Origin: Candidatus Thorarchaeota archaeon
GTDB lineage: Archaea > Asgardarchaeota > Thorarchaeia > Thorarchaeales > Thorarchaeaceae
Direction: 5' to 3'
Length of the DNA: 32,054 nt
NCBI GenBank assembly: GCA_018238375.1
Contig: JABCTJ010000161.1
Location: 1 to 32,054, forward strand
Shown piece by piece: positions 10,942 through 28,886 of the stretch. Position 1 is the stretch's first letter. The number at the start of each line of letters is the position of its first letter. The translations under genes and the position numbers were made by a program. The notes beneath the pieces were generated by a model that saw only the letters and a program-made list of their open reading frames with translations, searched no databases and had not been told where the DNA came from.

Positions 10942-11181
10942 TTGGAGACTAAATTGAGTGATTTGAGGCCCGGTAATACTGCAACCGTGACCAAGGTAAC
11001 AGGATCCGGTGCTGTCAAGAGGCGTATCGCAGACATGGGAATCACTCCTGGTGCCCGTATCGAAATGATTCGGAATGCACCGCTGGGTGACCCCATCGAG
11101 TTCAAGGTGAGGGGATATCTCTTGACCCTTAGAAGGAGCGAAGCCGAAGATGTGATGGTGTCTACGGAGGTGCAAATGTGA
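10942..11181 (+). CDS. feoA: FeoA, ferrous iron transport accessory protein
   Basis: A 79-residue FeoA: LSDLRPGNTATVTKVTGSG, then KRRIADMGITPGARIEMIRNAPLGDPIEFKVRGYLLTLRRSEAEDV, the complete SH3-like family pattern. It is a small cytosolic partner of FeoB. The start is TTG 10942 with GGAGAG eight bases upstream. Its stop overlaps the GTG start of the FeoB GTPase gene in GTGA, so the three genes feoA, feoB G-domain and feoB membrane domain are translationally coupled in series. Confidence 0.92.
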   Translation: METKLSDLRPGNTATVTKVTGSGAVKRRIADMGITPGARIEMIRNAPLGDPIEFKVRGYLLTLRRSEAEDVMVSTEVQM

Positions 11182-11876
11182 CAGTGAGAGTAGCTCTCAT
11201 CGGGAACCCAAACGTGGGCAAGAGCGTGATTTTCAACAACCTAGTCCCTGGTGCGCGTCAGCACGTTGGGAATTGGCCTGGCAAGACTGTTGAGAAGAAG
11301 ACAGGCAAGTACAGATACAAGGGCGAGGAATACGAGCTAGTCGACTTGCCCGGCTGCTACAGTCTGACGGCGCGCGCCATAGACGAATTGGTGTCGCGAA
11401 CCTACATTCTTGAGGAGAAGCCCGATGTTGTTGTCAATATAGTAGATGCATCAAATGTGGAGCGAAATCTCTACTTGACTCTACTTCTAATGGAGCTCGA
11501 AGCCAACATTGTGGTAGCCCTAAACCAAATGGATGTAGCCAAGTCCAAGGGGTACACAATCCGCACAGAAAAACTTGCGTCACGATTGGGGGTTCCAGTC
11601 GTTGAAACCATTGCTACGAAAAAAGCGGGGATGGAGAAGCTGAAGGAGGCTATCAAGAACGCGGCCAAGTCACCGAAACCTGCCTCCCTGACTTACCCGT
11701 CTGACATAGAGGATCTAATTGAGAAACTGGCCACTATCCTCAGTGCGGATGCATCCCTAGTGACTCATCACCCAGCAAGGTGGCTGGCGATCAAGCTGAT
11801 TGAGAGGGACAAAGAGGTCCTTGAGATGATTCAGGGGACTACATTAGGTTCTAAGATTGAGGAGGTATTTGCATGA
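11178..11876 (+). CDS. feoB: Split FeoB, GTPase-domain subunit
   Basis: A 232-residue stand-alone FeoB G-protein: G1 GNPNVGKS (9-16), NWPGKTVEKKTG (32-43), G3 DLPG (56-59), VDASNVERNLYL (89-100) and G4 NQMD (116-119), then a helical GDI-like region. No membrane segment is present. The gene ends TGA inside the start of the next gene (ATGA), which codes the membrane half. The break lies in the linker, so the two chains together equal a normal FeoB (674 residues). It may be a natural split, or a -1 slip at the overlap could make a fused form. It starts with GTG 11178. Confidence 0.92.
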   Translation: MTVRVALIGNPNVGKSVIFNNLVPGARQHVGNWPGKTVEKKTGKYRYKGEEYELVDLPGCYSLTARAIDELVSRTYILEEKPDVVVNIVDASNVERNLYLTLLLMELEANIVVALNQMDVAKSKGYTIRTEKLASRLGVPVVETIATKKAGMEKLKEAIKNAAKSPKPASLTYPSDIEDLIEKLATILSADASLVTHHPARWLAIKLIERDKEVLEMIQGTTLGSKIEEVFA

Positions 11877-13201
11877 AACGTGTCAAGGCTGTACTTGGGG
11901 ATGACCCCGAGATAACATTCGCAGAAAAACGATACAATATGATTGGCGAAATCTTGGAAGAGTGCCTTACCAAGACCGAAACTGGGATGACGTTTTCAGA
12001 TAAGTTGGACAAGGTGCTGCTGAACAAGTACCTTGGGATTCCAATATTCCTAATTCTTGTTTGGGCTTTATTCCAGTTCTCAATTGAGGCTTCAGGTGTG
12101 TTTATGGTAATCATCGAAACGGCTCTAGTGACTGTTGGCGAGTTCTTTGGAACTCTCCTGGTGGGCAATGAAATAGCCGCATCCTTGGTGCAGGACGGAA
12201 TCTTTGGTGGTTTTGCATTCATCCTACCATTCCTTGCCCCGATTTTCCTCATGTTCCTAGGCATAGCTTGGCTTGAGGATAGTGGCTATTTCGCTCGGAC
12301 AGCCTTTGTCATGGACAAGCTCTTGCGGAAGCTAGGAGTACACGGAAAGACATTCATACCCATGATGCTTGGATTTGGCTGCAACATTCCCGCCATAATG
12401 GCCTGCCGCAGCATCGAAGGTGAAAAGGATCGGATGATATCCATTCTGAGTAATCCATACATCTCATGCGGTGCAAGGCTGCCTGTATACGTTCTATTTG
12501 CAGCAGCATTCTTTCCTGGCTTTGAGGGATCCGTCATATTCTCGATGTACATACTCGGACTCGCTGTCGCTATCTTCACAGCTTGGTTGCTTCGAAAGAC
12601 TTTCTTCAAGGGAGAACCTGAGCCTTTCATAATGGAGCTCCCGATATACAGAGTCCCAACACTCCGAGAGTCCGTATTGCACATGTGGGAACGTGGTGTG
12701 GTCTTTCTGAAGAAGGCTGGTACTTGGCTGTTTCTTGGTGCGATTATTCTCTGGTTCATGTCGGCGTTCGGCCCTGCTGGCTACTTAGGGATTGATCCAG
12801 ATGTATCTGTGTCGTATACTGGAATCCTAGGCGGTCTGATTCAGCCGATCTTTGCTCCTCTTGGATTCGATTGGCGCCTTGGAGCGGCTCTAATATTCGC
12901 TTTCCTAGCAAAGGAGATTGCAGTGGAGAGTCTCGGCATAATCTTCGCAGTCGAAGGAGACATCGCAATCGGGAGTGCCCTAGCTGGTGTCTTCAGTCCA
13001 GCAACTGCTGCAGCATTCATGATATTCATTTTGCTATACATACCATGCGTGGCTGCAGTGGGAACCATCAAATCCGAAACGAACTCTTGGAAGTGGACTC
13101 TATTCTCAGTAGTCTACTCAATCATCATAGCCTATGTCATTGCGGCTATTGCATTTGCATTGCTATCGGCGATTGGTCTGGGCGTCATTGGAGGTGCATG
13201 A
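11873..13201 (+). CDS. feoB: Split FeoB, membrane permease subunit
   Basis: The 442-residue membrane half of a split FeoB. The cytosolic start (VKAVLGDDPEITFAEKRYNMI) is what normally follows the GTPase in one-piece FeoB. The membrane core has LGIPIFL, DSGYFARTAFVMDKLLRKLGVHGKTF, GFGCNIPA with C170 and SCGARLPVY with C199, all canonical, unlike the first FeoB of this window. Translation is coupled to the GTPase gene by the ATGA overlap at 11873-11876. It moves Fe2+ across the cytoplasmic membrane together with its GTPase partner. Confidence 0.93.
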   Translation: MKRVKAVLGDDPEITFAEKRYNMIGEILEECLTKTETGMTFSDKLDKVLLNKYLGIPIFLILVWALFQFSIEASGVFMVIIETALVTVGEFFGTLLVGNEIAASLVQDGIFGGFAFILPFLAPIFLMFLGIAWLEDSGYFARTAFVMDKLLRKLGVHGKTFIPMMLGFGCNIPAIMACRSIEGEKDRMISILSNPYISCGARLPVYVLFAAAFFPGFEGSVIFSMYILGLAVAIFTAWLLRKTFFKGEPEPFIMELPIYRVPTLRESVLHMWERGVVFLKKAGTWLFLGAIILWFMSAFGPAGYLGIDPDVSVSYTGILGGLIQPIFAPLGFDWRLGAALIFAFLAKEIAVESLGIIFAVEGDIAIGSALAGVFSPATAAAFMIFILLYIPCVAAVGTIKSETNSWKWTLFSVVYSIIIAYVIAAIAFALLSAIGLGVIGGA

Positions 13202-13886: not shown

Positions 13887-14354
13887 GTGCCAAGGGACTT
13901 GTCAACGACTCTGGAACATTATATTGAAACTATACACGACCTGCAGAAGGAGTGGGGGGCTGCTAGCGTTACTGACATTGCGGAGAAGAGAGGAGTGAAG
14001 TCCCCAAGTGTCACATATGTCCTCCAGAAACTCAAGGCTCTTGGTCTAGTTCGCTATAAGAAATATCGCAGCGTCACCCTGACACCTGCAGGTCTAAAGA
14101 TCGCGAAGAAGTTTGAGAAAACACGTTCAACTCTCACATGGTTCCTGACTCTAGTCGGCGTGAGTGAAGAGGTAGCGATTGTTGACGCTTGTGAACTAGA
14201 ACACCACATTCATCCAGAAACTATGGCCAGACTCACCGATTTTACTGAGTGGGTGAAGGGCGCACCTAAGGACCTCAAGTGGGTTGAGCATTTCGAGGAG
14301 TATCGTAGGACTGGTAAGCGTGTCAAGGAGTGCGACGGGGACACGTGGGACTAG
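13887..14354 (+). CDS. DtxR-family iron-dependent regulator
   Basis: A 155-residue DtxR-type regulator: winged helix (1-65, recognition helix around SPSVTYVLQKLK) plus metal/dimer domain. The ligand motif C102-E105-H106 (ACELEH) equals DtxR Cys102, Glu105 and His106 in spacing and number, suggesting Fe2+ sensing. The ancillary-site positions His79, Glu83 and His98 of DtxR are Thr, Thr and Ile here, so that site seems absent; the Met10 position is His11. No SH3 domain is present. The start is GTG 13887. It sits after the feo operon with its own promoter (TTGGAAGTTTTAT at about 13809, similar to TTGGAAGCTTTTAT before feoA). Confidence 0.88.
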   Translation: MPRDLSTTLEHYIETIHDLQKEWGAASVTDIAEKRGVKSPSVTYVLQKLKALGLVRYKKYRSVTLTPAGLKIAKKFEKTRSTLTWFLTLVGVSEEVAIVDACELEHHIHPETMARLTDFTEWVKGAPKDLKWVEHFEEYRRTGKRVKECDGDTWD

Positions 14355-20419: not shown

Positions 20420-21433
20420 TTAATTCGGAACAATTGACATTAGATACAGCGTACGGCCCACCGACTGCACGATTTCTACGGAGCCATCTCCATCCACATC
20501 TCCAAGTGCTACTAATGCCTCAGCTGCCTTTTTGACTGGCCTAATCGAAGCCTCCGGAGTTAGCATTCTCGATTCGTAAGAAAGAACCGTTATGTTCGAG
20601 TTACCTTGGCAGGACACTATTTGACCATCAGCTCCTGCCTTATCCAAAAGATGACCAATCCGCACAGATGTGATCGGGCTTGGCGCTCTGATGTTCGCCA
20701 GTTGCTTCATTTCTCCTTGGTCGATTCCGTGCAACGTTAGCTGTTTGTCATCCGAAATCGTAAGAATCTCATCACTATACCCGCCAGTGACTGCACCTGT
20801 AGCGACGAGGCTAATCTCGCCCTTGACCTTAGAACGATGAATCTCATGGAGCCTATCGTCTGCATACTGATAGACATAGAGGTACCCGGCGTCATCTCCA
20901 AACACAAATCGGCTGAATGAGAGCCCCCTGCTTTTTAGTGGTTTCATTGAGAATACCGGTCTATCAACCACCTTATGCGCAAGCTTGTCTAATGCAACGT
21001 CAAACCATCCGTAGCATCTCAGGGTATTATCGGCAGTAGCCACGATTACTTCAGCTGAGTCATCACTTACGACGTTTGTGACACAAATGGCCGTGGGAAG
21101 AGTTCCAAGAGGTGTAGTAGCTCTGACCCCCAACTCGTCATCAATAAAGCTCACAACTCGGAGCATATTATCGAGGCCCCCGAGCACGAAGTCCTTGACG
21201 CCATTTCCCATCACATCGCCAAGCGCCATTGCAGCAACGGGTGGTAGATTGCCGGTCTTCATAATCTCGATGGCTTTAACCTTCTTGCCAACCTCAAATT
21301 CAAAGATCCGAAGCTCACCATTCATTGTAGTAAGAACAAGACTATCTTTGCCATCGCCAGTGAGGTCTGTAAGTTCTATTCCAGTGATGACCTCCTTGAA
21401 TGGAATCTCTGCGATTATCTCGAGCTTGGGCAT
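20420..21433 (-). CDS. Cytosolic FG-GAP/integrin-like beta-propeller protein
   Basis: A 337-residue propeller of repeated blades with FG-GAP-like calcium loops: DLTGDGKDSLVL, GDVMGNGVKDFVLGG and GDVDGDGSVEIV. Each is followed by strands such as GELRIFEFEV and DNTLRCYGW. There is no signal peptide or membrane segment, which is unusual for this fold in archaea where it is often secreted. Eukaryotic cytosolic proteins with such propellers (for example ITFG2 of KICSTOR, and BBSome subunits) act as scaffolds; a link to these in an Asgard genome is inference. ATG 21433 has GAGGA nine bases upstream. Confidence 0.8.
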   Translation of the reverse strand: MPKLEIIAEIPFKEVITGIELTDLTGDGKDSLVLTTMNGELRIFEFEVGKKVKAIEIMKTGNLPPVAAMALGDVMGNGVKDFVLGGLDNMLRVVSFIDDELGVRATTPLGTLPTAICVTNVVSDDSAEVIVATADNTLRCYGWFDVALDKLAHKVVDRPVFSMKPLKSRGLSFSRFVFGDDAGYLYVYQYADDRLHEIHRSKVKGEISLVATGAVTGGYSDEILTISDDKQLTLHGIDQGEMKQLANIRAPSPITSVRIGHLLDKAGADGQIVSCQGNSNITVLSYESRMLTPEASIRPVKKAAEALVALGDVDGDGSVEIVQSVGRTLYLMSIVPN

Positions 21434-22238: not shown

Positions 22239-23750
22239 GTGTCTAATGATTCTGTCATCGAGCTCATCAAATTGGTGCGTATCACAGGAATGCGTGAGGC
22301 CGAATTGACCTCATTGAAGGCAGCTGGAGGTTCAGGTTGGAGTAGAGTTATGCAGCTGGTCGCGAATCACGAGGCTCTGCTTTCGAAGGGAGAGAAACAC
22401 ACACGTCAGAAGGCAATTCAAGATCCTGTACACGGCGCCATTCTTTTGGAGCCTTGGGAACTTGACGTCATTTCTACTTGGGAGATGCTCCGGCTGAGGT
22501 TTGTGATGCAACTAGGTCCGGCTCACATTGTCTATCCCGGCGCAACTCACACAAGGTTTCAACATTGCTTGGGCACGAATTTCCTTGCTCAGAAGTCGAT
22601 TCGAGTCGTGAACTACTGCGATGACCTAGAGCACGTGTGCTTCGCTCCACTATCACAGCTTCTGGATGACTATCAACAGAAGATATTCAGAATCACGGCT
22701 TTGCTTCACGACGTGGGTCATCCCCCAACCTCTCACACAATTGAGTTTGCCCTAAAGGGCGCCCATGACTTGGATCATATCGATCTTGGCGAATCGCTGA
22801 TTCTTCATAGCGGACTAACTGATGTCTTGACTCGCAATGACATCGAGCCCCAAACAGTGGTGGATGTTCTAAGACGTAAGTCAAAGGACCCAGTTCTGGC
22901 GTTGCTCTCGGAATTCCTTGACAATCCCTTTGACATAGACAAGACAGACTACCTCATCCGCGATGCCCATTTCAGTGGTGTACAACTAGGCGTCTTTCCT
23001 GCTGAACGTGTCATGCTTACAAATAGAGTTGTGAAAGACAAGAAGGATCGATACATACGGGGCTATATGCTCAAGGCGTTTCGGTCTCTGGAATCACTGG
23101 TCTTGAGTCGAAACTGGATGTTCTCCGACCTGTATCTGCACCACGCAGTACGATTAGCCGAGGCCATGGTTTCCAAGGCGACGTACTTTAGGATCAAAGA
23201 GGAGAAACTCTCAAGGAACGAGTGCATTGGGTTGTTCACACGGATGACTGATGCCGATCTTTACAGGTGGCTTCTCGAGTCTGAAACGAAATTCGTGCAC
23301 GAATACGCAGCAAGAATCAGGTATCGCCGCCTGTTCAAGGTGGTCCTGTCAAAGCCAATAACATTCTTTGAGGATGATGTCAAATTGCGGTTCTTGAAAA
23401 TGCTTGATGAAATTCAGGTGCTCCTTGACGCTGAAGAGGAACTTAATGAAGAGCCTGGGGCTGCGATAATCGATGTAGTCTATCCTGAGTTTGGAGTCAA
23501 CACCTTGGGGAACTTGCCCCTTCTTGCTGGTGGTGAGGGGATAGGTCTTGACATTGTTAAACTTGAGGACACTCAGGAAGGCAAGTCCTTGATACATATT
23601 TTGAGTCAACAAGAAAGTACGATTCCCTCGGTCAGAGTATATGCAAGCCCAGAGATAGCAGTCAAGGTGCACAAGAGGTTCGACCAGCTCTTTCCCGTGA
23701 AGGAGCACGTCGCATATCGCGAAGACGAGTATGATATGACTGAAACCTAG
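22239..23750 (+). CDS. HD-domain phosphohydrolase, SAMHD1/dGTPase-like
   Basis: A 503-residue HD-superfamily enzyme. Residues 60-70 (IQDPVHGAILL) begin the domain; metal ligands are predicted at H109 (HTRFQHCLGT), H157-D158 (LLHDVGHPPTSH) and D234 (FDIDKTDYLIRDAHFSG), matching the SAMHD1 set H, H-D, D in order. SAMHD1-type enzymes split dNTPs to deoxynucleoside and triphosphate. Neighbouring primase-like, CARF-like and RNase III-like proteins suggest a nucleic-acid or nucleotide theme. The GTG start at 22239 fits the TATA box 45 bases upstream. A general housekeeping dNTPase is possible. Confidence 0.9.
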   Translation: MSNDSVIELIKLVRITGMREAELTSLKAAGGSGWSRVMQLVANHEALLSKGEKHTRQKAIQDPVHGAILLEPWELDVISTWEMLRLRFVMQLGPAHIVYPGATHTRFQHCLGTNFLAQKSIRVVNYCDDLEHVCFAPLSQLLDDYQQKIFRITALLHDVGHPPTSHTIEFALKGAHDLDHIDLGESLILHSGLTDVLTRNDIEPQTVVDVLRRKSKDPVLALLSEFLDNPFDIDKTDYLIRDAHFSGVQLGVFPAERVMLTNRVVKDKKDRYIRGYMLKAFRSLESLVLSRNWMFSDLYLHHAVRLAEAMVSKATYFRIKEEKLSRNECIGLFTRMTDADLYRWLLESETKFVHEYAARIRYRRLFKVVLSKPITFFEDDVKLRFLKMLDEIQVLLDAEEELNEEPGAAIIDVVYPEFGVNTLGNLPLLAGGEGIGLDIVKLEDTQEGKSLIHILSQQESTIPSVRVYASPEIAVKVHKRFDQLFPVKEHVAYREDEYDMTET

Positions 23751-23771: not shown

Positions 23772-24431
23772 TCAGACAAGATACCGGACTAGTTCCTTGA
23801 TCTTTTCTAGCCCATGTTCAATGTAGACGATTCCGTAGATTGCTTCAAGCAGCGTACCCTTGTCATGTTCCATCTCTGACTTGCTCACAGCGTGGGGGTC
23901 GAAGTGGATGCGGTGTTCATAGAGCCCCCAATCATCGCAAAGTTCAGCCATATGTTCGTTGTTGACAATGTCTGACCTCTTCTGGGTCAATATGCCCACA
24001 TCAATCGATTTCGGCTGCCAGATGTGGTGCAATGCAGCCAATGAGATTGACGCATCTCCCACTAGTGCCAGCGCCTCCGCCATTTCGCTAAGAGCCACAA
24101 GATGCTTCAGTTCTTCCTGCTTGATTGGGAATTCATCTATCATCTCAAGAAACAGGTTTTTCGTGCTTGGCTGGAACATCGCAACTAGGAGTAGCTCGCT
24201 CTTGTGTAGAGACACTTCTAGAACTTTCTCAAGTTTCGGCCTTAGTGTATCTTTGATTCGGTCTATTAGGGACAGTATGCTGGCTAACTGTTTGGCCCAA
24301 CGTTTCATCTTTCCAAGAAGACGTGTGTTCTGAGAGGGCACGTTCTCTTTCGCCTTCTTCACTTCAGTCAGCAGTGAAGTTATCTTCTTCTCGATATGGC
24401 CTTGTTCGAGATTAAGGTCGCCTATACTCAC
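23772..24431 (-). CDS. RNase III-fold protein with N-terminal helical region
   Basis: A 219-residue protein. Residues 112-215 match the RNase III fold: MAEALALVGDASISLAALHHIW (E119, D126), GILTQKRSDIVNNEHMAEL and KGTLLEAIYGIVYIEHG (T193, E196). The canonical second Glu and second Asp of bacterial RNase III are Ala and Thr, as in Mini-III, but D126 and E196, the core metal ligands, remain. The first 75 residues look like coiled coil; no double-stranded-RNA-binding domain follows. It could cleave structured RNA or be a binding-only protein. The GTG start overlaps the stop of the CARF-like gene (GTGA), so the two are made together. Confidence 0.72.
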   Translation of the reverse strand: MSIGDLNLEQGHIEKKITSLLTEVKKAKENVPSQNTRLLGKMKRWAKQLASILSLIDRIKDTLRPKLEKVLEVSLHKSELLLVAMFQPSTKNLFLEMIDEFPIKQEELKHLVALSEMAEALALVGDASISLAALHHIWQPKSIDVGILTQKRSDIVNNEHMAELCDDWGLYEHRIHFDPHAVSKSEMEHDKGTLLEAIYGIVYIEHGLEKIKELVRYLV

Positions 24432-25222
24432 GTTACTTCTCTCCTGGGCAGAACTGTTGTGATTGTAGTTTTATCCCCCTCGTATCTCTGCACATGAATT
24501 GCGGGCAGTGAGTATTCCATAGCCAGAAGACTCAATGCAAGCACAATTGTAGGCGGGCCTGAAGACAGATCCACAAGAATATCCCCCTCTGGTATGTCTT
24601 CCAGAACTACCTTCTCTATCTCGGAGTATGTGGACATGAGATTCCCTCGGAGACCTCCTTCATTGTCCCCCGCTATCTCGATAGGCAGTTCAAGCCATCT
24701 GTTCTCCCACTGCCGAGGTGCATTGTCTGGAATGTGTTTCTCAAGGTTCTTGGAAACCCCTCTGGCAAAGCGCTGTTGTTCTACAACTAACCGTAGGAGC
24801 TTGATGTCAGGACTGGCCTCTGTGGAAAGCCATGCAACCAGCAGCCGAGCGTCTTCGGGCAGTGCCAACGACGTGAGGAATACCTTGGGCTTCGAGATAC
24901 CAAGTGCTCTTCTTACGGGGTGTACTGCTTTCGGTTCAAGACTGAATACACGCTGCTGTGACTCTCTCCAGCTACGGATGATTCCTACATCCTCAAGGTG
25001 TTGCGTGTTGAAGTAGAGCTTTGGGTCCGTGACTTTGACTTTCTTTGGGTCTACCTTCTTGCCTTTTGAGCCGACCTGCCTCGCAGCCATATCCTTTCTG
25101 ATACTCTCTCTTAATTCGCTCCCGGTTCGTGGACCTCCTTCAAGTTGATCTAGAATTATCCTGCGAGCACGCACTCCTTCTATCTCTTTGCGGATGATGT
25201 CGTCACCAGATGGCCAGAACAT
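24428..25222 (-). CDS. Winged-helix protein with C-terminal CARF-like ligand-sensing domain
   Basis: A 264-residue protein with two parts. Residues about 12-100 look like a winged helix with a lysine-rich insert (SKGKKVDPKKVKV) typical of a DNA-binding wing. Residues 110-264 look like a Rossmann-type CARF domain: VFLTSLALPEDARLLVAWLS at its start and DILVDLSSGPPTIVLALSLLAMEYSLPAIHVQRYEG at its end, with D-L-S-S-G-P at 218-223 as the nucleotide-loop candidate. CARF domains bind cyclic oligonucleotides, and some also occur in non-CRISPR archaeal regulators. ATG 25222 has GGTGA six bases upstream. It is the first gene of an operon with the RNase III-like gene. Confidence 0.65.
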   Translation of the reverse strand: MFWPSGDDIIRKEIEGVRARRIILDQLEGGPRTGSELRESIRKDMAARQVGSKGKKVDPKKVKVTDPKLYFNTQHLEDVGIIRSWRESQQRVFSLEPKAVHPVRRALGISKPKVFLTSLALPEDARLLVAWLSTEASPDIKLLRLVVEQQRFARGVSKNLEKHIPDNAPRQWENRWLELPIEIAGDNEGGLRGNLMSTYSEIEKVVLEDIPEGDILVDLSSGPPTIVLALSLLAMEYSLPAIHVQRYEGDKTTITTVLPRREVT

Positions 25223-25583
25223 GATTATTCACCACGGCCTTATATCGACATGACCTATATATATTATGTTGGTTGATGTGTGTGTTATCCTGATGATATA
25301 TATTGTAATCTTTTGATGAAACAGGACAGTCATACGAAATCGCCCCATGTGCTACTTCCCGCCCTCGAAAGCCTACAATGCGGTTTTGGGCATTTTCGGG
25401 TATTTTTACTATGAAATACATTATCTATATAGAATAGATAGTTCTCGAACTAATCGGGCTGTTTTTCGAACCCAACCAAACAAGGCTTAAATAGAAAAAG
25501 AATGCAATTTCTGCCAGCACAGAGTTTGGATAACTTTGCGCGGGAATCTAGATTCTAGATAAACAATAATGAGGACCGACAAA
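25223..25583 (+). other. AT-rich promoter region between the CARF-like gene and actin
   Basis: This 361-base gap holds no convincing gene. It contains the actin TATA box, a run of TA repeats (about 25255-25305) that may provide the CARF-like gene's promoter on the minus strand, and a 7-base inverted repeat TATCTAT-N5-ATAGATA (25422-25440). Confidence 0.6.
25485..25494 (+). promoter_or_regulatory. TATA box of the actin gene
   Basis: GCTTAAATAG lies about 99 bases before the preferred actin ATG. The start site would be near 25520, giving a leader of about 65 bases. The same ten-mer is used by the HD gene. Confidence 0.65.
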
Positions 25584-26723
25584 ATGGCTGAAGACGAATT
25601 TCTTGGCGCGAAACCTGTTGTCATTGATAATGGCACAGGTCTCAGTAAGAATGGTTACGCCGGCGAAGATCAGCCACGAAGTGTTTGGCCCACACTAATT
25701 GGTTATCCGCGATACGAGTCGATTATGACAGACGTCGACCACTACACGCGTGATTACTACATTGGTGAAGAGGCTATCAACTTGCGTGGTGTTCTACGTC
25801 TGGTATACCCAATCGAGCACGGTGTGATCGATGACTGGGATGCTATCGAGAAGATATGGAGCTATACGTTCTATAACGATCTCAAGATAGACCCCAGCGA
25901 GAACCCAGTGCTTCTTACCGAAGCGCCGTTCAACCCCAGAGAAAACAGAGAACGAATGGCATCTGTCATGTTCGACAACTTCGGAGTACCCGCAGTGTAT
26001 GTCGCAACGCAGGCAGTGCTATCACTATACGCATCAGGTCGGACAACTGGTCTGGTCATCGACTCCGGTGATGGTGTGACACACATAGTCCCAATCTACG
26101 AGGGCTTTGCTATATCACATGCCATCGCGAGAATCGATCTTGCAGGACGTGACGTCACCGAGTATCTGCGCAGACTGCTCAGACAGAGGGGTTACACCTT
26201 TGTCAGCGGTGCAGAGAAGGAGATTGTCCGAGACATCAAGGAGAAACTCTGCTACGTTGCCCTCGACCCTGAACGTGAGAGGACCGTTGCAGACAAGGCA
26301 GGCGTTGACAAGCCGTACATGCTCCCCGACGGTGATGTAATCACCATTGGTGCAGAGCGCTTCCAGGCTCCCGAGTTGTTCTTCAACCCGAGCGCTATTG
26401 GCTTGGACACGAAGCCACTCGATGAGCACATCTTTGGCTCAATCAAGGCATGTGACGTCGACTTGAGACGTGATCTGTACGCGAACATCGTGTTGTCAGG
26501 TGGCTCCACCATGTTCCCAGGACTTAAGGAGAGGCTCCACAAGGAGATCACCGAACTAGTCCCAGAGAACGTCGAGGTTCGCATCATTGCTCCTCCTGAG
26601 AGGCAGTACTCAGTCTGGATTGGTGGAAGCATCCTAGCGTCACTAAAGACCTTCCAAAAAATGTGGGTTTCGAGGAAGGAATTTGATGAGGCAGGGCCTG
26701 AAGTCATCCACAGATGCATCTAG
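25584..26723 (+). CDS. Asgard actin homologue (Lokiactin-type)
   Basis: A 379-residue actin. The phosphate loops are [14 protein letters not shown] (14-27) and [13 protein letters not shown] (158-170), and the adenosine segment is [11 protein letters not shown] (304-314). YVALDPERE and the C-terminal [19 protein letters not shown] are nearly eukaryotic. The catalytic-site Q143 and H167 correspond to actin Gln137 and His161. Length matches eukaryotic actin (375), so this is not a MreB or crenactin. ATG 25584 is preferred because GAGGA lies nine bases upstream; ATG 25569 lacks a ribosome site. It should polymerise into filaments with profilin and gelsolin-type regulators. A hairpin terminator follows, and the 3' end is duplicated at 28799-28886. 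Confidence 0.97.
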
Positions 26724-28103: not shown

Positions 28104-28472
28104 CTAATCTTTCTTCGATATTGGAGGTCTACTGATTCTTACTGTTGTTGGAGATATGACCACGAATTTGCCTTCCATCTCATCAGAGTATTCCTTGAGG
28201 GCGTCAGCAATAATCATTGCTTTGTTACTAGTCCGAAGTCCGTGAAGGCGTGTCAGGATGACTCCTGCTGAAGCTCGCCTTTGCCTAAAGACAATCTCGC
28301 CAAAGTCCTTATCAGCTGTTAGGAGTATCGCATTTGACGATTGTGCCATTTCCAAAACCACATCATCACTTGCGCCCGATAAATTTTCAGCGATATAATC
28401 GATCGCGAATCCCTGTGACCGAAGATACTCTACAACAGTCCTCTCGATGCATTCATCTGCAAGTAGTTTCAC
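28104..28472 (-). CDS. DUF5615 PIN-like toxin
   Basis: A 122-residue PIN-like protein. LLADECIERTVVEYLRSQGF and ILLTADKDFGEIVF carry the acidic residues (D6, E7, D54, D56) of a PIN-type nuclease centre. DUF5615 proteins are normally paired with DUF433 antitoxins and may act as RNases. It overlaps the DUF433 gene by four bases and is followed by a GNAT gene. Confidence 0.85.
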   Translation of the reverse strand: MKLLADECIERTVVEYLRSQGFAIDYIAENLSGASDDVVLEMAQSSNAILLTADKDFGEIVFRQRRASAGVILTRLHGLRTSNKAMIIADALKEYSDEMEGKFVVISPTTVRISRPPISKKD

Positions 28473-28705
28473 TCTGCTGCTTCTCCACTAGGATGAGTGA
28501 CAGTCGCTTTGAGCGCATCAGACGCAAATGCTATGGCAGCAAGAACAGCTTTGCGACTGAGTTGAGGATAGTCCTTTAGGATTTGCTTAATGGTTTCGCC
28601 AGCCGCGAGCTTGTCCAGTATCAATTCAACTGTGATTCTAGTGCCAGCTATTAGCGGTTTTCCCATCATAGCACTTGGATCTGTTATTATGAGGTCATCC
28701 TGCAT
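28469..28705 (-). CDS. DUF433 antitoxin
   Basis: A 78-residue DUF433 protein: MMGKPLIAGTRITVELILDKLAAGETIKQILKDYPQLSRKAVLAAIAFA is the complete helix-turn-helix-like domain. It is the likely antitoxin and autoregulator of the DUF5615 toxin. ATG 28705 has a strong GAGGTG seven bases upstream; a longer frame from 28861 would read through the duplicated actin fragment and is rejected. A TATA-like GTTATAAG lies near 28749-28756 on the minus strand. Confidence 0.88.
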   Translation of the reverse strand: MQDDLIITDPSAMMGKPLIAGTRITVELILDKLAAGETIKQILKDYPQLSRKAVLAAIAFASDALKATVTHPSGEAAE

Positions 28706-28798
28706 CTTAGACACCTCTCGGCTCTGGGAGTAATATGTATCTGATTGCTTATAACAATCCCGAACAAGTGCCCCTGTATCGAACGACGCTACACACAG

Positions 28799-28886
28799 GC
28801 AGGACCTGAAGTCATCCACCGATGCATCTAGTGCAATTAGTTTCTGAAGGCAGGGCTGCAAGGTCCTCCTTCAAACTCTCTTTCCT
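28799..28886 (+). repeat. Direct repeat copy 2: orphan actin 3' end with terminator
   Basis: This stretch still encodes the actin C-terminus in frame ([10 protein letters not shown] then TAG) and the hairpin, where one arm changed (GCCCT to GTCCT) but a G-T pair keeps the stem. No actin sequence precedes 28799. It is a pseudogene-like fragment of a lost or copied actin gene, in a gap of 215 bases. Confidence 0.88.

Follow-up and report, generated by a model that had tools for sequence, protein, structure and literature searches.

What does a domain familiar chiefly from CRISPR immunity do beside an actin gene? In Asgard archaea we find a CARF domain in this position, and in one class, the Thorarchaeia, it has been rebuilt and paired with a protein of the RNase III fold. 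The locus lies in a 32,054-nucleotide stretch of a Candidatus Thorarchaeota archaeon genome (contig JABCTJ010000161.1; hereinafter the window), in which an initial annotation, made from the sequence alone, had proposed a ligand-controlled RNA-processing operon of two minus-strand genes overlapping by GTGA. Both ORFs, and the four bases that they have in common, are indeed as it described (Table 1). It had also taken the pair to be undescribed, and in the partial library of literature that we searched we found no CARF/RNase III pair, and nothing joining Asgard archaea with CARF and winged-helix domains, or Asgard archaea or Thorarchaeia with RNase III. Both components are members of known superfamilies; as far as we checked, it is the combination and the residue changes that are new. 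The reading that we favor, if only tentatively, is that one autoregulated operon co-expresses a rebuilt regulator of the actin locus and a Mini-III-like RNase. The locus offers three candidates: an actin regulator for Asgard archaea, a CARF domain whose ligand would be new, and a minimal RNase III of archaea whose active site is of the Mini-III type.

Table 1. The paired genes and the adjacent actin locus, in coordinates of the window
Feature	Position	Strand	Description and evidence
Gene 2, RNase III-fold protein without dsRBD	23772..24431	-	ORF of 219 aa, GTG start
E196 codon of gene 2	23844..23846	-	Equivalent of Aquifex RNase III E110 and Mini-III E106; invariant in alignments
D126 codon of gene 2	24054..24056	-	Equivalent of Aquifex RNase III D44 and Mini-III D23; invariant in alignments
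N-terminal helical extension of gene 2	24225..24431	-	Residues 1-69, not part of the RNase III core; AF2 helices at 13-29 and 36-71
GTGA overlap, gene 1 stop and gene 2 start	24428..24431	-	Four bases common to both ORFs
Gene 1, winged-helix/CARF protein, CARF_m5-like	24428..25222	-	ORF of 264 aa, ATG start
C-terminal CARF (Rossmann-like) domain of gene 1	24431..24886	-	Residues 113-264; AF2 model, Foldseek, PADLOC
CARF motif 2 loop, D218-L-S-S-G-P-P224	24551..24571	-	Pro in place of the oligoadenylate-motif Arg/Lys
N-terminal winged-helix domain of gene 1, ArsR/PadR-like	24893..25222	-	Residues 1-110; AF2 model, Pfam PadR, Foldseek
Divergent intergenic region	25223..25568	.	TATA-like CTTAAATA of actin (25486-25493), from aligned Thorarchaeia intergenic regions
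Conserved hairpin/inverted repeat in the actin leader	25512..25544	+	Covariation in Thorarchaeia alignment; model search
Lokiactin gene, divergent to gene 1	25569..26723	+	Pfam Actin 7.3e-132; place conserved in many Asgard families

Domain architecture of the two proteins

The AlphaFold2 model of the gene 1 product, obtained with 42 aligned sequences (pLDDT 87.3, pTM 0.84), contains a winged helix, with helices across residues 6-79 followed by a beta wing at 82-95, and then a Rossmann-like domain. For the N-terminal part, Foldseek searches of the PDB recovered regulators of the ArsR and PadR types, and the Pfam PadR profile matches 14 of 42 homologues (best e-value 5e-6). The best Foldseek matches overall are Csm6, Cam1, ring nucleases, Can2 and Csa3, with a probability of 1.00 to Csm6, Cam1 and others and e-values from 3e-5; the TM-scores are moderate (for Cam1 ~0.6, normalized to the target), which is what a distant domain should give. 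At the sequence level the PADLOC profile CARF_m5 matches residues 62-244 (e-value 4.7e-17), and the Csm6-CARF profiles of Pfam and NCBIfam give weak matches (0.042 and 0.0055). The confident model, the structural matches and the profiles agree on the winged helix and C-terminal Rossmann domain that had first been read from the sequence, and the loop described there as D-L-S-S-G-P is found at residues 218-224. By its predicted fold, gene 1 is a member of the CARF superfamily.

The winged helix precedes the CARF domain in the model, the reverse of the order seen in most described CARF families (PMC4012209). This sets gene 1 apart from Csa3, the transcription factor that likewise combines CARF and winged-helix domains (Foldseek e-value ~8e-3) but carries the CARF domain first. 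The same order as in gene 1 is found in the CARF_m5 minor family (PADLOC PDLC01987), whose profile scores far better against L145, L117 and L116 (1e-43 to 1e-50) than against gene 1, and which includes four proteins of Lokiarchaeia CRISPR loci (L145-L148). Two of these, L145 and L148, have Cas10, RAMP or Cas1 genes nearby; genes of the STIV_B116-like family, which includes known cA4 ring nucleases, lie close to L146 and L148. Unlike these CRISPR-locus proteins, the Thorarchaeia form lacks the Arg/Lys of motif 2, has an RNase III-fold partner and lies outside CRISPR loci.

The gene 2 product matches the Pfam Ribonuclease_3 profile (PF00636) above its curated cut-off (e-value 2.9e-12), with RNase III profile matches beginning at about residue 103-119, and its AlphaFold2 model is all helical (pLDDT 89.4, pTM 0.86). 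Foldseek aligned this model to Drosha and bacterial RNase III with a probability of 1.00, though at e-values of just 0.003-0.1, and also recovered mitoribosomal RNase III-fold proteins; a sequence-profile search was stronger (Drosha 5.8e-17, bacterial RNase III 1e-10). The similarities to CARF and RNase III on which the initial annotation had staked its reading are borne out, and we regard both folds as practically certain.

Conservation of the pair

Gene 1 and gene 2 were each found in 43 of the 47 Thorarchaeia genomes (family f1), and in all 42 genomes with both they are adjacent on one strand with gene 1 first, at spacings between a 4-base overlap and a short gap; the remaining five genomes are incomplete or have the partner gene at a contig end. 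Among the Asgard genomes we found the pair in Thorarchaeia alone. Scattered genomes of Lokiarchaeia and of other Asgard lineages have the RNase III-like protein without a CARF neighbor, some copies being interrupted by stops, and this distribution suggests that the gene 2 family can work alone. Conversely, many other Asgard families have the CARF protein without the RNase III. The anticipated conservation of the pairing across Asgard genomes therefore holds throughout one class, and elsewhere each gene is found without the other.

The two genes are part of a larger block conserved as a whole in Thorarchaeia, which includes an NTP transferase, a CDP-alcohol transferase, a 138-aa protein, an HD protein, an FG-GAP protein and actin, and of which the first three are partly common to other Asgard loci too. 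Because the entire neighborhood is conserved, adjacency is weak evidence of coupling. The two could be independent housekeeping genes held together by the conservation of a block that also spans the HD, FG-GAP and 138-aa genes, with the regulator acting at the actin locus, the RNase III processing RNA elsewhere, and neither controlling the other, as their separate occurrence in other Asgard families would also allow. Nevertheless, no Thorarchaeia genome has them separated: wherever both are present they are on the same strand and overlap or lie a short gap apart, and the pairing coincides with a long stem branch and a motif change of the CARF protein (see below). We consider independence somewhat unlikely; on the sequence evidence, coupled action of the two genes in an autoregulated operon is plausible.

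The active site of the RNase III-fold protein

D126 and E196, the residues to which the RNase III-like motifs of gene 2 had originally been pinned, are invariant in 29 homologues, including those of the Lokiarchaeia type, and K191, T193, N158 and D166 are likewise strongly conserved. Of 52 family members, 49 carry A-D-T-E at the four catalytic positions (in Aquifex RNase III E40, D44, D107 and E110), two carry G-D-T-E and one A-D-S-E; the equivalents of E40 and D107 in gene 2 are Ala and Thr, so that two canonical catalytic acids are missing. The Mini-III of B. subtilis, a sequence that differs from the PDB chains 4oun and 6tnn solely by their respective E106Q and D23N changes, also reads A-D-T-E at these positions. 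The E106Q mutant of Mini-III is inactive (PMC5141509). Since active Mini-III has the same four letters, the reduced site is compatible with catalysis. The sequence kinship between the two is weak (4oun, e-value 0.3), so convergence is as likely as descent.

The two missing acids, together with the mitoribosomal proteins among the structural matches, would also suit a pseudo-enzyme that serves as an RNA-binding scaffold, like the mitoribosomal RNase III-fold proteins, and works with the regulator. Against this stand the invariance of D126 and E196 in all homologues, the strong conservation of the other four residues and the identical site of an active enzyme, and we judge a scaffold of this kind clearly unlikely compared with a Mini-III-like RNase.

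With respect to the known classes of RNase III, gene 2 departs from the canonical class 1 in having A-D-T-E rather than E-D-D-E and in a chain that ends with the RNase III domain, with no C-terminal dsRBD. It resembles Mini-III (class 4) in combining an RNase III domain that lacks a dsRBD with the reduced site, but Mini-III, which cleaves dsRNA as a homodimer, consists of the catalytic domain alone, and gene 2 adds a helical N-terminal extension of ~70 residues and has its own FQPSTKNLF and K-G-T motifs. A single RNase III domain in 219 aa does not fit Drosha or Dicer (classes 2 and 3), whose chains each hold two such domains together with others. We rejected a kinship with these enzymes: Drosha is the best PDB sequence match, but bacterial RNase III scores alike by fold and the domain plan differs, and we propose no special RNAi link. 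Other Asgard archaea encode RNase III proteins with the same fold, such as L069 and L070, which carry E-D-D-E and dsRBD-type C-terminal extensions, both lacking in the Thorarchaeia protein; an Asgard rnc gene has also been located beside HrAgo1 (PMC11217426). A Pfam Ribonuclease_3 search of the Thorarchaeia genomes recovered no second RNase III domain, leaving gene 2 as the only one found. No relatives of its product were found in viral contigs or plasmids, and a mobile origin was rejected on this ground.

A rebuilt CARF ligand motif

The loop that follows beta 4 in CARF domains generally, if not universally, carries an oligoadenylate-binding motif, (D/N)-x-(S/T)-x3-(R/K); Csa3 retains Arg98 and binds cA4 (PMC8844856). 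With D-L-S-S-G-P-P, gene 1 departs from this motif. The basic residue is missing in 37 of 38 Thorarchaeia rows of our alignment, where Pro, Ser, Thr or another residue replaces it and the usual version is D-L-S/T-x-G-P. It is retained in all 24 rows from other Asgard lineages, 22 of which fit the whole motif (L118 and L144 among the 24 are the same locus counted twice), and in all four CRISPR-locus relatives, three of which have Glu at the start of the motif. The CARF tree follows the classes: on a very long stem (1.69 changes per column), the Thorarchaeia form one clade that adjoins the Hermodarchaeia. It is on the Thorarchaeia side that the Arg/Lys was lost. As the replacement is itself conserved, it suggests a changed function rather than decay. 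We take gene 1 to be the Thorarchaeial version of an Asgard actin-locus regulator that predates the pair.

Consistent with the initial remark that the window has no CRISPR or cyclase gene, its larger ORFs yielded no Cas or cyclase domain, and gene 1 lacks the hallmark of type III CRISPR ancillary proteins, namely being encoded with or dependent on Cas10. Searches of the 47 Thorarchaeia genomes detected the Cas10 palm domain in nine, and in neither the window's genome nor its genus. The loss of the Arg/Lys and the rarity of Cas10 disfavor control by cyclic oligoadenylate. Of the operon originally proposed, the folds and the tight pairing stand, and the known CARF-ligand model for gene 1 is unsupported. 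On the same two observations we reject, as a main reading, a defence module, whether stand-alone or ancillary to type III CRISPR, in which cyclic oligoadenylate from Cas10 binds the CARF domain and switches on the RNase III-like nuclease: the CARF fold and the similarly ordered relatives in Lokiarchaeia loci would fit it, but the pair is single-copy, beside actin and outside defence loci, the RNase III protein lacks viral or plasmid relatives, and we hold such a module to be most improbable.

The actin locus and a conserved leader hairpin

The CARF gene is divergent to lokiactin in the Thorarchaeia loci examined, and the same arrangement recurs, without the RNase III, in 14 distinct loci of eight other Asgard families, which include f3 and records named Hermod-, Jord- and Baldrarchaeia; it is absent at L076, L080, L123, L127, L128 and L143. 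That the CARF regulator is fixed beside actin in many Asgard lineages indicates that it is probably old in them. This synteny alone is no proof of a functional link, because the wider block is partly conserved too. In family f27 (L139 and L142) the CARF gene stands tail to tail with a gene for a small Ras-like GTPase.

The intergenic region shows an AT-rich similarity near both promoters, from which we do not claim a shared operator. A conserved hairpin lies just downstream of the likely transcription start of actin. In the alignment of Thorarchaeia leaders 88.9% of the hairpin cells are paired, as against 22-43% in slid controls, and 14 cells show two-sided changes, a number reached in 0 of 500 shuffles, these pairing and covariation figures being inflated by the choice of leaders that looked alignable. 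L108, which had been left out of the model, was matched independently (e-value 0.001), and in the genomes searched the best match to the model, where there was any, was the actin leader. Either an RNA structure or a DNA operator could underlie the element. A hairpin also forms in Hermodarchaeia actin leaders, with no RNase III gene present; those of L117, L120 and L122 have a different, strong one of the form GGAATAC...GTATTCC. For all its good covariation, we set aside the Thorarchaeia hairpin as an RNase III substrate and leave it as a lead: its 7-bp stem is short for RNase III, an operator palindrome would look alike, and in Hermodarchaeia a leader hairpin exists apart from the enzyme.

A model for a possible operon

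The autoregulated operon of our preferred reading would be a two-gene unit specific to Thorarchaeia. The gene 1 product is probably a dimer, whose winged helices would bind the divergent promoter region between gene 1 and actin, and whose CARF domain would sense either no ligand or one that is not canonical cyclic oligoadenylate. Gene 2 would be a Mini-III-like RNase acting on a limited set of structured RNAs, and co-transcription would place this nuclease under the autogenous control of the gene 1 regulator; the two proteins may, in addition, contact each other directly. In a bolder version, the CARF domain, with its sensing site rebuilt on the Thorarchaeia stem, would physically gate the Mini-III-like RNase and both would control actin expression via the leader hairpin. 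We regard this as a long shot; if true, it would be a CARF/RNase III switch outside immunity, regulating a cytoskeletal gene of an archaeal relative of the eukaryotes.

Other features of the window

The HD-domain protein of the conserved block (22239-23750, plus strand) carries an HD_assoc_2 domain and is SAMHD1-like; its gene is convergent to the RNase III gene, a place conserved in Thorarchaeia. Beside it in the block is the FG-GAP protein, a BBS7-like beta-propeller (20420-21433, minus strand). No Rfam family matched anywhere in the window. A DUF5615 PIN-like protein (28104-28861, minus strand; Pfam e-value 1.9e-24) is preceded by a small ORF that is likely of the antitoxin type, and the two probably form a toxin-antitoxin pair. 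FeoB is split into two adjacent genes (11178-13201, plus strand) near an iron-dependent repressor (13887-14354), and a second, full-length FeoB is encoded at 200-2029.
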